From NCBI GenBank assembly GCA_016223025.1, contig JACRPU010000065.1:1-48160 (forward strand): a DNA stretch of 48,160 bases. The letters are read 5' to 3'. The DNA is from Nitrosomonadales bacterium (GTDB lineage Bacteria; Pseudomonadota; Gammaproteobacteria; Burkholderiales; Gallionellaceae). Positions within the stretch are counted from its first letter, which is position 1, and each line of letters starts with the position of its first letter. Made by a program: the position numbers and the translations under genes. Positions 11,195 to 41,699 of the stretch are shown here, one piece after another. The notes below the pieces were generated by a model. It was not told where the DNA came from. It worked only from the letters and a program-made list of their open reading frames with translations, and searched no databases.

Positions 11195-12307
11195 ATGAAA
11201 ATCGGCATTCCGAAAGAAATCAAGATCAACGAAAACCGCGTTGCTCTCGTCCCTTCCGGCGCGGAGGCGCTGGTTGCCGCCGGGCACACGGTGCTGGTGG
11301 AAAGCGGCGCAGGGCTGGGCAGCGGCTTCAGCGACGAGCAATATGCCTCGGCTGGCGCGCACGTTGCCGCCGATGCCGGCGCGATATGGGCAGAGGCGAA
11401 ACTGATCGTCAAGGTCAAGGAGCCGGTTGAGCGGGAATGGAAGCGTATCCGGCCAGAACAAACGCTGTTCACCTTTTTCCATTTTGCCGCCAGCCGGAAT
11501 CTGGTGCAGGCGCATCTGGACTCCGGCGCAACCTGCATCGCCTACGAAACTGTGCAACTGCCGTCGGGCGAGCTGCCTTTGCTGACCCCGATGTCGGAAG
11601 TGGCGGGGCGCATGGCGGTGCAGGAGGGCGCGAAATATCTGGAGAACTTATACGGCGGTCGCGGCGTGTTGCTGGGCGGCGTGCCCGGCGTACCGCCCGC
11701 GCATGTCGCCATTCTCGGCGGGGGCGTGGTGGGAGCCAACGCCGCCAGAATAGCCGCCGGGATGGGCGCGAGCGTTGTGATCCTCGACATCTCGCTGGAG
11801 CGGCTGCGCCATCTCGGCGACATCATGCCGGCGAACGTGCAACTTGTTTTTTCCAACCGCCACACCGTGCTGGAACACATCTGCCGCGCCGACCTGGTCA
11901 TAGGCAGCGTGCTGGTCACCGGCGCCGTCGCGCCCAAGCTGATCCGCCGCGACGACCTCAAGGCCATGCTCAAGGGGGCGGTAATCGTGGATGTGGCCGT
12001 GGATCAGGGCGGTTGCGCGGAAACCACGCACCCCACCACGCACGAAGACCCGGTTTATGTTGTGGATGGCGTGCTCCACTATGCGGTGGCGAACATGCCC
12101 GGCGGCGTGCCGCGCACCGCCACGCTCGCGCTCACCAACGCGACGCTGCCATATGTGCTGCAACTGGCCAACAAAGGGTGGCGGCAGGCGTTGCGCGATA
12201 ATGCGGCGCTGCTGAATGGGCTGAATATCGCTCATGGAAAAATCGCCCATCGCGCCGTCGCCGATGCGTTTGGCTTGCACTACCACCAGCCGGAGGCTCT
12301 TCTCTAA
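11195..12307 (+). CDS. ald: Alanine dehydrogenase
   Basis: A 370-residue enzyme that reversibly converts L-alanine and NAD+ to pyruvate, ammonia and NADH; length matches the family. The N-terminus MKIGIPKEIKINENRVALVPSGAEALV is diagnostic. The substrate-binding domain carries KVKEP and FTFFHFAASRNL. The Rossmann NAD-binding glycine motif is ILGGGVVGANAARIAAGMGA at about residues 169-188, followed by VVDVAVDQGG and ANMPGGVPRTATLALTNATLPY. The stop codon falls on the first bases of the second 133-bp repeat. It appears monocistronic. Pyridine nucleotide transhydrogenase PntA is related but longer, so ald is the better call. Confidence 0.96.
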   Translation: MKIGIPKEIKINENRVALVPSGAEALVAAGHTVLVESGAGLGSGFSDEQYASAGAHVAADAGAIWAEAKLIVKVKEPVEREWKRIRPEQTLFTFFHFAASRNLVQAHLDSGATCIAYETVQLPSGELPLLTPMSEVAGRMAVQEGAKYLENLYGGRGVLLGGVPGVPPAHVAILGGGVVGANAARIAAGMGASVVILDISLERLRHLGDIMPANVQLVFSNRHTVLEHICRADLVIGSVLVTGAVAPKLIRRDDLKAMLKGAVIVDVAVDQGGCAETTHPTTHEDPVYVVDGVLHYAVANMPGGVPRTATLALTNATLPYVLQLANKGWRQALRDNAALLNGLNIAHGKIAHRAVADAFGLHYHQPEALL

Positions 12308-12436
12308 CTTTCATGCAGCAGAAGCGCAGCGCCCCTGATTATGAAATAGGTTCTACTGGGCCTGAACTTATCCACAGAGTAACAGATTGATTCCATGCAA
12401 CATACGGCTGTTTTCGTAAATGTATTTCACGCTAAC
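12304..12436. repeat. 133-bp exact dispersed repeat, copy 2 (DnaA box inside)
   Basis: Identical by eye to 1798-1930 and in the same orientation, about 10.5 kb away. The DnaA box TTATCCACA lies at 12368-12376. Here the repeat ends in noncoding DNA: the ATG that starts the fused methyltransferase in copy 1 is present but soon loses any matching frame. Its left edge coincides with the ald stop codon. Confidence 0.85.
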
Positions 12437-12484: not shown

Positions 12485-12536
12485 CTGGTTATCCCGGAGG
12501 GAGAGAGGGCGAAGCCCTCGCTGCGCGAGATTCACG
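12485..12536. repeat. Dispersed palindromic repeat, copy A
   Basis: CTGGTTATCCCGGAGGGAGA continuing through GCCCTCGCTGCGCGAGATT closely matches 16508-16558. It contains local palindromes (GAGGGCGAAGCCCTC and GCGCGAG). The 12437-12689 gap otherwise shows no supportable gene, only a short CAACA-type tandem run at about 12655-12670 and an AAGGAG ribosome binding site for the next gene. Confidence 0.6.
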
Positions 12537-16318: not shown

Positions 16319-16737
16319 TCCTGTCTCCTTGTTGCATGACATAGTGCGACTGCGCACCTTTAACCCAGATAATCCCTCACCCCTGTTCCCCCTCTGGGTG
16401 TGACAATTGGTGAAACAACTAGCCATCCCACTAAGCAACCAGAAGACGGTTGCCAAGTGGTTGGTTATAGCCATTCGGCTAGGCTGCAAGAAGCCGCAGC
16501 CAAGCCGCTGGTTATCCCGGAAGGAGAGGGGTACGGTATGCCCTCGTTGCGCGAGATTAACGTTAACAGTCAGATGAGCCAGAAATCTGGAGTGCGTGAG
16601 CTTGCTCCCGCTTTACGGCACCCGCATGGTGCAAGAGCGGCGTCAAGCACCAAAGGTAGGCAATCCGCTATCCGGCAAGCCGGATGCGGAGTTGACGCCC
16701 GCCGCACCTCAAAGACAATGTCCTCACCCGATGAGCT
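16319..16737. other. Gene-free interval with a second copy of a palindromic repeat
   Basis: No supportable gene. The interval holds repeat copy B at 16508-16558 (CTGGTTATCCCGGAAGGAGA through CCTCGTTGCGCGAGATT), matching 12485-12532. It also holds small hairpins such as AACCCAGA/TCTGGGT (about 16363-16399) and ATCCGGC/GCCGGAT (about 16670-16687). Open frames here have no convincing starts or family resemblance. Confidence 0.55.
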
Positions 16738-19274: not shown

Positions 19275-19517
19275 GCAGCCTGTCTGACTTGAAGAATCGA
19301 AGCGAAACGGTTCAAGCAGGCAAGCCGCGCAGCGGCTGCTCGCAAAATTCGGCTGGGCGAGGGCAGATTTTGCGAGCTTTCGCCTTGCGGCGAAATGCCT
19401 GCTTACCCCGCTTGACGATTTTGCAGGTCAATAGTCGTTCTATTGACCAAAAAAGCGGCGAAATATGCACCGGCCAGACGGATTTGCAGCCGATTTCCTT
19501 CAAGTCAGACAGGCTGC
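19275..19517. mobile_element. MITE-like element, copy A (243 bp)
   Basis: A 20-nt perfect terminal inverted repeat (GCAGCCTGTCTGACTTGAAG at 19275-19294 and its complement at 19498-19517) bounds an interior with no gene. The interior contains AAGCCGCGCAGCGGCTGCTCG and CGGCTGGGCGAGGGCAGATTTT. It matches 40141-40347 closely along its length, except for an extra stretch of about 40 nt here, around 19367-19410. It lies 35 nt beyond the miaA stop codon. Confidence 0.85.
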
Positions 19518-19551
19518 CAGACCCGGCTTTCGGCTTTTACTTCTTGCGCGG

Positions 19552-20523
19552 CTATTCGCGCGGGCGTAGCGCATCCGCTGCTTGTTGCAGCAAGTCTGGC
19601 GCAAGGCAATCCAGCTCAATGTTGCCCGGCATGGAGCGCAGCCAGGTGAGCTGGCGCTTGGCCAGTTGCCGCGTGGCGGCGATGCCTTTATCCAGCAATT
19701 CCGCCGCGCCGATTTCTCCGGCGAGAAATTGCCATGCCTGTCGGTAACCCACGCAACGCATGGCGGGCAGATCCGGGTGCAGGGCGTAACGCGCTTGCAG
19801 CGCGCGCAATTCCTCCGCCAGGCCGAGCTTCAGCATGGCCGCAAAGCGCGTGGCGATACGGGCATGCAAGGCGCTGCGGTCGGAGGGGACAAGCGCGATG
19901 GGGGTGATGCGATAAGGCAGGTTGCGCGCTTCCATGTCCGCCCCGGCAAGGGAAAGGGGCGAGCCGCTTTGCTGGCGGGCGAGTAGCGCGGACATCGGCG
20001 TGCCGGTGATGCGGTAGATTTCCAGCGCGCGCTGGACGCGCTGCGAGTCGTTCGGCTTCAGCCGCGCGGCAGTGGCCGGGTCAACCTTTGACAGTTCGCC
20101 GTGCATGGCCGGCCAACCGGTGCGGGCCGCCTGTTCCTCCAGTGCTGCGCGCACCGTTGGATCGGCCTGCGGCAGGTCGTCGAGGCCTTCGCGCAGCGCC
20201 TTGAAGTACAGCATCGTGCCACCCGCCAGCAACGGAATCCGGTTCCTCGAAGTGATGTCATGCATCAGCCGCAACGCATCGCGGCGGAAGGCGGCGGCGG
20301 AGTAAGTTTCGTCCGGGGAGATGATGTCTATGAGGTGGTGCGGCGCACGCGCGCGGGTCGCGGCATCCGGTTTGGCGGTGCCGATGTCCATGCCGCGGTA
20401 CACCAGCGCCGAATCCACGCTGATGATTTCCACCGGCATGCGTTGCGCCAGTTCCACCGCAACAGAGGTTTTGCCGCTGGCGGTGGGGCCCATCAGGAAA
20501 ATGGCGGGGGGAAATTGCTTCAT
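19552..20523 (-). CDS. miaA: tRNA dimethylallyltransferase
   Basis: A 323-residue enzyme that prenylates A37 of tRNAs reading UNN codons, from ATG 20523 ([20 protein letters not shown]). The P-loop is [15 protein letters not shown]. Family blocks follow: [61 protein letters not shown], and [18 protein letters not shown]. The C-terminal [17 protein letters not shown] and [15 protein letters not shown] complete the signature. Its ATG overlaps the mutL TGA by an ATGA, showing translational coupling; mutL-miaA is a well-known gene order. Confidence 0.96.
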
Positions 20524-22334
20524 CGTCCGCGCAGGAACATCGCGTCCAGTTCGGCGATGCTGATCTGAAACCACGTCGGGCGTCCGTGGTTGCATTGGCC
20601 GGAGCGTGCGGTGCGCTCCATTTCGCGCAGGATGCCGTTCATTTCCGGCAGGGTCAGGCTTTGGTTGGCGCGCACGGCCGCATGGCAGGCCAGCGTGGCG
20701 AGCAATTCGTTGCGCCGTTCGGTCAGCGCGCGGGTGGCGCCGAACTCGCGCAGTTCGCGCAGCACGTCGCGCGCGGCGGCTTCCGCGTGCGCCTGCTTGA
20801 GCGGGGCGGGCATGGCGCGCACCGCAAGCGCAGCCGGCGAGATCGGGGCAATGTCGAAACCGAGCTGCGCCAGCGCCGCCTGCTCTTCTTCCGCTGTGGC
20901 GATGTCCAGCGCATCGGCGGAAAAACTTGCCGGGATCAGCAGGGGTTGCGCCGGGATATGCTGCCCGTCGAGCGCGGCCTTGAGCTTTTCGTACACGATG
21001 CGCTCGTGCGCGGCGTGCATGTCAACCACCACCAGGCCTTGCCGGTTCTGCGCGAGGATGTAGATGCCGGCGAGCTGCGCCAGCGCAAAACCCAGCGGCG
21101 GGATGCCGGTGTCATCGGACAGCCGGCAGGCGGCTGATAATGATTTTTCACTTTCTGATTCCTGGCCACTGGTTCCTGAGTCCCGGTTCCCGAACAGCGC
21201 GTCGTAGAGCGCGAGCGGTTCGGCGGCGGCATGCAGCGGCATGGCATATTGCTGCTGAACGAACGGGGCCGTTTGGCGTGGCGTTTCGGAAATGTTTTCC
21301 GCCGGGGCGGCGGGCGCCCCCAACGCCTGTTGCAGGGTGTGGAACACGAACCGGTGGATCGCCTGGCTCTCGCGGAAACGCACTTCGCTCTTGGCCGGAT
21401 GCACGTTCACGTCCACCTGCTCCGGCGGCATGTCGAGGAACAGCGCGAAGGCCGGGTGGCGCTGGCCGTGCAGGATATCCTGATAGGCTTGCCGGATGGC
21501 GTGAGCCACCACCTTGTCGCGCACGAAGCGGCTGTTCACGAAAAAATATTGCGCATCGCGCGAAACGCGCGAGCAGGCTGGCAGCGAGGCCATCCCGTAG
21601 AGATGCAGTCCTCCTGCCCGGCGATCAACGATCGCCGCACCCCGCGCGAACTCGTCGCCGAGGAGAGCGGCTATGCGCTGTTGCAGGAGGCGCTCCCCCA
21701 CCCCTGACCCCTCCCCCGGAGGGAGAGGGGAAACAGGCAGTTGCCATACCACGCGGTTGTTGTGTTGCAGGCTGAATGCGACCTCCGGGCGCGATAGCGC
21801 AATACGCTTGAATGCTTCCTCGCAATAGGCGAATTCGGTCGCTTCGGATCTCAGGAATTTGCGTCGTGCCGGAGTGTTGAAATACAGCTCGCGCATTTCC
21901 ACGCTGGTGCCGAGCGCGTGGGCGGCTGGGGCGGCATCGCTTTGCATGCCGTCCGCCGCCTGGATCTGCCAGGCATGGGTTGCTTCGGGGTTGCGGCTGG
22001 TGAGCGTGACCTGCGCCACCGCCGCCATGCTGGCCAGCGCCTCGCCGCGAAAGCCCATGCTGGGGACGCGCCGCAAGTCATCCAGCGTGGCGATCTTGCT
22101 GGTGGCGTGGCGCTTCAGGGCGAGCGGCAGTTCGTCCGGCGCGATGCCGCCGCCATTGTCGCGCACCCGCAAAAGCCTGACTCCGCCGCCTTCCAGTTGC
22201 ACGGCAATTTCGGTGGCGCCCGCATCCAGGCTGTTCTCCATCAGTTCCTTGAGGGCGGAAGCGGGGCGCTCGATGACCTCGCCGGCAGCGATCTGGCTGA
22301 TGAGCAGGTCGGGCAAAAGTTGAATGGCGGGCAT
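20520..22334 (-). CDS. mutL: DNA mismatch repair protein MutL
   Basis: A 604-residue GHKL ATPase that couples MutS mismatch recognition to downstream endonuclease and helicase steps, from ATG 22334 ([20 protein letters not shown]). Motifs are [29 protein letters not shown] and [13 protein letters not shown] in the ATPase domain, plus the [14 protein letters not shown] signature. The C-terminal dimerisation domain has [13 protein letters not shown] and [12 protein letters not shown]. Around residues 200-215 an extra [16 protein letters not shown] is encoded by an intergenic-type palindromic repeat in frame. The linker before the C-terminal domain is poorly conserved, as usual. The metal-binding DQHAxxE endonuclease motif of many MutL proteins is [11 protein letters not shown] here, so nicking activity is doubtful. 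Confidence 0.95.
21693..21732. repeat. Palindromic repeat inserted in frame within mutL
   Basis: CCCCTCCCCC and GGGAGAGGGG with a GGA turn form a GC-rich hairpin at 21708-21730, preceded by CTCCCCCACCCCTGA. This is the style of intergenic repeat also hinted at in 12485-12536 and 16378-16560. It is translated on the minus strand as [13 protein letters not shown] without breaking the frame. Confidence 0.7.
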
Positions 22335-40140: not shown

Positions 40141-40347
40141 CTAGCAGCCTGTCGGACTTGAAGAATCGAAGCGCATCGGGTTTAGCAGGCAAGCCGCGTA
40201 GCGGCTGCTCGCAAAATTCGGCTGGGCGAGGGCAGATTTTGACGATTTTGCAGGTCAATAGTCATTCTATTGACCAAAAAAGCGGCGAAATATGCACCGG
40301 CCAGGCGGATTTGCAGCCGATTTCCTTTAAGTCCGACAGGCTGCTAG
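40141..40347. mobile_element. MITE-like element, copy B (207 bp)
   Basis: Arms CTAGCAGCCTGTCGGACTT (40141-40159) and AAGTCCGACAGGCTGCTAG (40329-40347) are perfectly complementary. The interior matches copy A (19275-19517) apart from about 40 nt that are absent here. The right arm overlaps the end of fprA: the TAG stop at 40344-40346 is inside the arm. CTAG at both edges may be part of the arm or a target duplication. Confidence 0.85.
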
Positions 40348-41699
40348 TGCCGGGCGAGCAACGCGAGCATCGCCCCGACATCGGTGATTTTGTCGCGGGG
40401 TGCGCCGCGCCGCGTCCCGCGCGCCACCTCCACGTCTTCGAGCCGCTTCCAGTCGTCGAAGGAGACGATTTGTACGCCGCGCCCGCGCAGCAGGGAGAGG
40501 ATCGCATCGCGCTCCGGAAGCGCGCGCGCATCGAGCCCGGCGCCATCGGCGATCATGTGCTCGACCACGTGGGCGGACGCGGGTTTGTGCGAGCCGATGA
40601 GGCCCTGCGGCCCGGTGCGCGCCCAGCCGACGACGTATTCGTTGGCGGCCACGGCGCGGCTGGCGGGATCAACCACCCGCCCGTCCTCGTTGGCGATGAT
40701 GCGCGCTTTTTCGTCGTAGGGAACACCGTCAATCCGCTTGGCGGCAAAACCGATCGCGGGCAACACCATCCCGACATCGAGAACCTCGACCTCGCCGGTG
40801 CCGCGCGCGACGGTCGTGCCGTCCGGCTGAAGTTCGAGGCGGTTCTTTTCGAGCGCGAGGCCGGCCACGCCGCCATCCGCGCCAGCGATCACCCTGATCG
40901 GCGAAACGAGGAAGCGCAGGTGGAGCTTCTTCGTGTTTGCGGCGGGTTGCCGCGCGGCGAAGGACTGGAGAATCTTCAGGTTTTTTTCCTGCTGCTAGTT
41001 GCCCGCAGTTTCCGGAATGGCGCAGCCCGCAAGCTCGCCCGGCGCGACGACCGGGTCAACATCTTCCATCTCGCCGAGCTCTTTGAGTTCGGGCGGCGTG
41101 AACGAGGCTTGCTCCGGCCCGCGCCGCCCGAGTATGAAGACTTCGCGCACCCGGCTGTTGCGCAATGCCTCCAGCGCGTGTTCGGCCAAGTCGGTCTTTT
41201 CGAGTTCGGCGGGCGCGCGCAGCAGGATCCGCGCGGCGTCAATGGCGACGTTGCCGTTGCCTGCCACCGCGACGCGGGGCACCGACAAATCAATCTGGGC
41301 GTGGCGGTAGTCCGGGTGGCCGTTGTACCAGCCGATGAAGACGGTCGCGGGCGTGCAGCGCGCGATGCCTTCTCCGGGAATGCCGAGGCGCCGGTCGGCC
41401 TCGTTGCCCACCGCGTAGACGATCTGGTGGTAGTGCTGGCGCAACTCTTCCGCCGTCACGTCGCGCCCGAGGCACACGTTGCCCAGGAAGCGGAACGTGG
41501 GGCGCGCGGCAGTTTTTTCGTAAACGCGCGTGACGGCCTTGATGTTCTGGTGGTCGGGCGCGACCCCTCCCCGCACCAGGCCATACGGGGTAGGGAGGCG
41601 GTCATACATATCCACGTGGACTATCGTATCGGTGCGCTTGAGCAGCGCTTCCGCCGCGTAGAAACCGGCAGGTCCGGAGCCGATGATTGCGATGCGCAT
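40344..41699 (-). pseudogene. fprA: Adrenodoxin-reductase-like ferredoxin-NADP reductase, interrupted by an in-frame TAG
   Basis: From ATG 41699 the frame encodes an FprA-type flavoenzyme of about 451 residues that passes electrons between NADPH and ferredoxin. The FAD site is [20 protein letters not shown]. It continues [20 protein letters not shown] and [10 protein letters not shown], with the NADP Rossmann motif [18 protein letters not shown]. At 40995-40997 a TAG follows ETAGN. Reading on in the same frame gives QQEKNLKILQSFAARQPAAN, RFLVSPIRVIAG, GWARTGPQGLIGSHKPASAHVV, and so on, exactly the expected C-terminal half. One nonsense change therefore splits an otherwise intact gene. The final codon before the natural end borders a MITE arm that supplies the stop. 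Pseudogene, sequencing error or amber readthrough cannot be separated here. Confidence 0.85.

Follow-up and report, generated by a model that had tools for sequence, protein, structure and literature searches.

The window, a 48,160-nt stretch of Gallionellaceae DNA, carries mutL on the minus strand at 20520..22334, as assigned by Pfam and alignment. The listed open reading frame reaches 22421, and the ATG at 22334 is the likely start, giving a protein that begins MPAIQLLP. Its Pfam matches include the GHKL ATPase fold and the MutL_C domain, and a pattern search found the motifs that we take to mark endonuclease-type MutL proteins as well as QPLLIP, presumably a motif of the clamp-binding type. 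By its fold, MutL_C domain and these motifs, the protein would be classified as an endonuclease-type MutL, with an activity that is predicted only.

Within the gene, 39 nt at 21693..21731 (minus strand) form an in-frame repeat insert of 13 codons, which is missing from empty-loop relatives and adds residues 202–214, numbered from MPAIQLLP. The hairpin core of the repeat, at 21708..21730, is near perfect and consists of 10-nt arms (9 of 10 positions paired) and a 3-nt loop. A preliminary description of this DNA had proposed a GC-rich hairpin repeat in frame in mutL, adding 13 residues in the range ~200–215, and this is confirmed.

An AlphaFold model covering the N-terminal part of MutL (mean pLDDT 86) matched Escherichia coli MutL (PDB 1b63) with a Z of 37.1 and an rmsd of 2.1 over 309 residues. 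In this predicted structure, most of a low-confidence loop after strand 194–199 and the first turn of helix 210–225 is formed by the insert, in agreement with its earlier placement in the ATPase domain between conserved blocks. By sequence alignment, E. coli residue ~200 (a number counted from the alignment) directly precedes the insert site, and the N-terminal sub-domains I and II, given as 1–209 and 210–331 in PMC3724809, meet close to the loop. The same source proposes residues 209–230 of P. aeruginosa MutL, with 245–252, as a possible NTD-CTD contact. The E. coli change R200D, tried as a MutS-interface change, is reported with a mutation rate of 0.663, the rates for wild type and empty vector being 0.121 and 5.43 (PMC4521584). 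Because R200 lies just before the site and R200D raises the mutation rate, a mild effect of the insert is possible; the reported data suggest a site that is tolerant of change, yet not plainly irrelevant.

Empty-loop relatives such as L033 read WQLPAQSLAQRI where the window has 25 residues. According to the preliminary description, close relatives encoding the same residues in nonrepetitive codons would point to an ancestral loop; no such loop was found, the near relatives (L033, L036, L047 and L054) having only a short loop at the insert site and the sister species, the other genome of the genus examined (G001, L032), reading WQLPASPLLPCDGPGAGGRSMQQRI, a decayed copy below the detector score. 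As the sister carries this decayed copy, the insertion predates the split of the two species of the genus. The insert has diverged faster than its surroundings: it shares 30/39 nt and 7/13 residues with the sister's copy, compared with 844/960 nt and 284/320 residues in the flanks (200 codons before and 120 after). Identity at codon positions 1, 2 and 3 is 0.85, 0.77 and 0.69 in the insert and 0.93–0.94, 0.93–0.94 and 0.75–0.79 in the flanks. From these figures, which for the insert are based on nine differences, the inserted residues seem to evolve with little constraint.

Genomic copies and relation to known elements

The preliminary description had proposed a search of the genome for the same hairpin, and dispersed copies were found both within genes and beyond MutL. 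Allowing at most three mismatches, the 20-nt core pattern had 58 matches (28 forward and 30 reverse) in the 2.75-Mb genome of 137 contigs (G000), two of them exact and the mutL copy being one of these. Two matches on contig C137 overlap, leaving 57 places, and the repeat thus fits the general description of a REP, a short palindrome in many dispersed copies. The core pattern read backwards, used as a control, had no matches in the same genome at the same threshold. A 22-nt version of the core was unique within the window and absent from 100 shuffles. The folding energy is unremarkable for such GC-rich DNA (z –1.83, with 8 of 200 shuffles equally good in single-sequence folding); it is the repeat copies, not the folding energy, that exclude chance.

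Among the 30 of the 58 matches that were read, 14 copies share by eye a longer unit of ~115 nt, while within recognizable genes most consist of the bare core or of core pairs; the copy in L023 is a nested composite. The 42-nt core has five of the six frames open in 25 of these 30 copies and all six in three, compared with 61 percent of random 42-mers of the window having five or six open frames and 20 percent having all six. Its high GC content and the openness of most copies in five of six frames make the repeat translatable.

In-frame copies were seen in six further loci of the genome (L007, L008, L010, L023, L026 and L004), whose products read as RecQ, aconitase, an ATP-grasp protein, a UvrD-like helicase, alanyl-tRNA synthetase (AlaRS) and a haemagglutinin-type protein, all but AlaRS judged from the translations by eye. 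In RecQ, the copy sits a short way ahead of DEAH. Repeats of other types (PPFTKGRD..PPFVKGGLGGG, SSFPHKRESS and PPRPPLAKGGG) are present as well in the UvrD-like helicase and AlaRS. The window itself contains a perfect 133-nt direct repeat (1798–1930 and 12304–12436) and a repeat pair of 94 percent identity (19412–19526 and 40239–40353). A second element (GTAACCAGCGACTT-like ... CTAGTAGTTC) is apparently nested in the hairpin repeat at 16395–16540 and 12485–12508 as well as, in frame, within the MutL loops of L097, L153, L159 and L162.

Three genes in the genome match Y1_Tnp (RAYT-like; L256, L257 and L258), and a palindrome of the repeat's type lies near one of them, ~400 nt downstream of L257. 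Eleven sets of empty and filled loci, inspected by eye, showed no clear target-site duplication. GTAG, CGTC and their complements are absent from the 66 nt around the window copy, which is therefore not a GTAG/CGTC-tagged REP; for 30 genomic copies, the surrounding 70 nt contained GTAG in no case, CTAC in four, CGTC in one and GACG in two. Relatives are not uniform in this respect, as the element terminates in GTAG in L034, L061 and L063, within their MutL inserts (GAGAGGGTAG).

In-frame palindromic inserts are of a known kind. Rickettsia palindromic elements (RPEs; Ogata et al. 2000 and 2002, as cited in PMC2229807, PMC10969869 and PMC3733652) are dispersed palindromic repeats found in frame in unrelated conserved proteins, as is the repeat here, in MutL and other proteins, and a guanylate kinase with such an insert is described as still active with a changed substrate affinity (same sources). 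RPEs belong to another lineage, however, and measure 105–146 nt (PMC2229807), in contrast to a core of ~40 nt here, although RPE-4 and RPE-6 count among short REP-like units (PMC3733652). The window copy also lacks their CGTC end, and as the likeness is one of description and not of aligned sequences, we make no RPE assignment. A second comparison is with intragenic GTAG/CGTC REPs, short palindromes in coding genes, many for DNA repair and some for tRNA synthetases; two Xanthomonas species carry one in recB, at nearly identical positions (PMC3733652). Here, the window copy has neither a GTAG nor a CGTC end, and a single MutL loop is filled repeatedly across a whole family. The repeat further resembles the REP/BIME elements with RAYT transposases (named in PMC3733652) in its single and paired hairpins, its many copies and the Y1_Tnp genes in the genome; it differs in that the window copy has no GTAG tag and a palindrome lies near only one of the three Y1_Tnp genes. 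The main text of PMC3733652, as distinct from its Additional file 3, does not mention mutL, and text searches of the literature (articles without their supplements) yielded no report that we recognized of mutL or Gallionellaceae carrying palindromic inserts, nor one of the recurrence in the MutL loop.

Recurrence in MutL and in other proteins

We searched MutL genes across the family for hairpins with pyrimidine-rich 9-nt arms. Among 158 family genomes, 150 had a MutL match, and 145 genes were taken (leaving out G060, G086, G128, G143 and G148); three of these (L058, L143 and L157) were not picked up by the motif search, and 142 were analyzed. In 40 of them, a total of 65 hairpins was detected: 34 in the insert loop, 30 in the linker ahead of the C-terminal domain (query residues 351–404), one at residue 251 and none elsewhere, a near-absence from the folded domains. 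Loop hairpins occur in at least 27 of the 142 genes, a lower bound because the detector misses evident inserts (L052, L097 and L159). The preliminary description had called repeat insertions that preserve the frame uncommon; for this clade that view finds no support, the MutL loop and loops of MutS, PolA, ValRS and AlaRS being filled in many relatives. Outside the family, 59 MutL genes had three hairpins and none in the loop; this outgroup came from 80 named loci, of which the 13 nearest (L176–L188, 63 to 75 percent identical and partly overlapping with the family set) were excluded and 59 of the remaining 67 were picked up. The named records, from Nitrotoga, Sideroxydans, Ferrigenium and Gallionella, one of them (L176) matching the family locus L037, put the genome in or near Gallionellaceae. 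Counted from WQLP, the loop varies from 10 to 63 residues, and its 34 hairpins are read in three frames (GEG-type for 20, GRG-type for 7 and RER-type for 6, with one unsorted). The MutL loops of L119, L124, L125, L132 and L172 have taken up nonpalindromic repeats (GGATTCAG-like units).

Filled loops are widely scattered over the MutL tree, with some clustering by kinship. On a FastTree phylogeny built with loop and linker removed (136 family rows, 26 of them filled; six short genes omitted and many forks weak), the distribution requires a minimum of 21 changes, a count that takes gain and loss together, and 200 shuffles gave 21 to 26 changes (mean 24.1), the observed value equalling the smallest. 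Well-supported neighbors differ in filling (L072/L083, L075/L151, L067 vs. L105/L109, L153 vs. L059/L066 and L082 vs. L078/L102/L150), and a test on 26 filled and 24 other rows rejected a single clade of the filled ones (p-AU 8e-83). The repeat was found in 121 of the 158 family genomes, with a median of 13 copies per genome where the loop has a hairpin (n = 27) and 2 where it has none (n = 115; Mann–Whitney p = 3e-4, kinship ignored).

That the count is no higher than the lowest shuffle value points to some clustering by kinship, whether through inheritance or exchange, and the loop sequences could in part have spread by recombination of mutL among relatives. Near-alike two-hairpin inserts (SPNSPHPQSLSRLRERE... 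and variants) in L081, L082, L103, L160 and L166, from different clades, are consistent with such spread. Other inserts differ, however, in frame, length and element, and the repeat is present in most genomes of the family; we consider recombination unlikely, though compatible with repeated insertion of a mobile repeat.

To compare other proteins, we used 30 mostly repeat-rich genomes: 28 of the 32 with at least 19 pattern matches (leaving out G107, G130, G060 and G143 for lack of a MutL sequence), plus G000 (15 matches) and G154 (13), each with a hairpin in its MutL loop. In this set, hairpins were found in MutL in 15 of 30 genomes (loop 13, linker 7), MutS in 18/27, PolA in 18/26 and AlaRS in 5/24; ValRS had them in 13/25, or 12/25 if the matches in L402 and L399 (residue 65) lie upstream of the start, the sequences being stop-to-stop frames. 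The MutL loop was without a hairpin in 17 of the 30. Excluding G000 and G154, the counts were 13/28 for MutL, 16/25 for MutS, 17/24 for PolA, 13/24 for ValRS and 4/23 for AlaRS. None was found in GyrB (0/21), UvrA (0/29) or RpoB (0/21), which at 214 kb together serve the detector as a clean negative control. MutS, PolA and ValRS each have one site that is filled in several genera. The loci used were 25/30 for ValRS, 26/30 for PolA and 29/30 for UvrA, where the remaining loci were fragments or different proteins; MutS had 28 loci (one without a motif-bearing frame, two duplicates dropped), AlaRS 27 (three without), RpoB 22 (one without a motif frame, fragments L431–L435 dropped) and GyrB 21 (ParE-like loci and fragments dropped). 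The MutS of the genome studied here (L283, G000:C94:22035-24716) has an in-frame hairpin insert, CPPHPGPLPRGERA, and both of its mismatch-repair proteins are thus decorated.

Origin and effect of the insert

Pooled, the repair genes are decorated in 51 of 112 cases and the others in 18 of 91 (Fisher p = 1e-4), but we reject a targeting of repair genes, as UvrA (0/29) and ValRS speak against it and the eight genes were hand-picked, AlaRS partly from the insert seen in the genome itself, and come from related genomes. Structural permissiveness accounts for more of the pattern than repair function does, because UvrA is undecorated and two tRNA synthetases are decorated. Many intragenic REPs are described in replication and repair genes, with a speculated mutator role (PMC3733652); this trend agrees with our data on MutS, MutL and PolA and not with those on UvrA.

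The same idea could be extended to an adaptive insert, in which a longer loop beside a MutS-contact residue would weaken or tune mismatch repair and be gained by mild mutator lineages. The pooled contrast, the frequent decoration of MutS and MutL (in the present genome, of both), the use of the adjoining R200 as a MutS-interface residue (PMC4521584) and the proposed NTD-CTD contact of the neighboring region (PMC3724809) all favor it. The decoration of ValRS and AlaRS, which are not repair proteins, and the empty record of the repair protein UvrA speak against it, as does the fast divergence of the insert, and a test of gene classes is not supported by eight hand-picked genes; we find the adaptive reading very unlikely. 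A related scenario, in which convergent decoration of MutS and MutL tunes repair, the longer loop mildly raising mutation or recombination and this then favoring the spread of the repeat, is likewise very unlikely.

An ancestral loop extension, GC-rich and repeat-like by chance and lost in some relatives, can be practically dismissed: the genus g12 (Nitrotoga; L037 matches the named L176) mostly has a long nonpalindromic loop, but the core has copies across the genome, the inserts use three frames and differ in element between lineages, most outgroups are short-looped with one visibly longer (L248), and the empty sites in relatives together with the clade test rule the extension out.

The insert is very probably a REP-like mobile repeat that entered mutL in frame before the two species of the genus split and was filtered by selection into a permissive loop, with an effect close to neutral. 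The repeat would have spread through the genome, possibly moved by a Y1-type transposase, and one copy would have landed in mutL. Because the loop at this site varies in length and lies close to where the ATPase sub-domain meets the second sub-domain, 13 extra residues could be tolerated there, as are up to ~53 in relatives. Selection would then purge copies in folded parts and spare those in loops and linkers, so that the same loops are filled repeatedly across the family, and the inserted residues would diverge under little constraint, with presumably little consequence for repair. Scattered recurrence and fast divergence argue, at the level of sequence comparison, that the insert is kept by tolerance.

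The filled sites amount to a natural map of insertion tolerance in MutL, MutS, PolA and ValRS, and the related empty and filled alleles allow a direct test of the mutation-rate question raised for intragenic repeats (PMC3733652). Mobile DNA may also rewrite conserved proteins and not only pad them. The arginine R220 is invariant in a 60-sequence MutL alignment, and in some relatives repeat DNA seems to have replaced it: in L052, L081, L082, L099, L103 and L160 (...GLGERV or GLGVRV ...LLG/ILG), its codon, judged by eye, apparently comes from the terminal part of the repeat.
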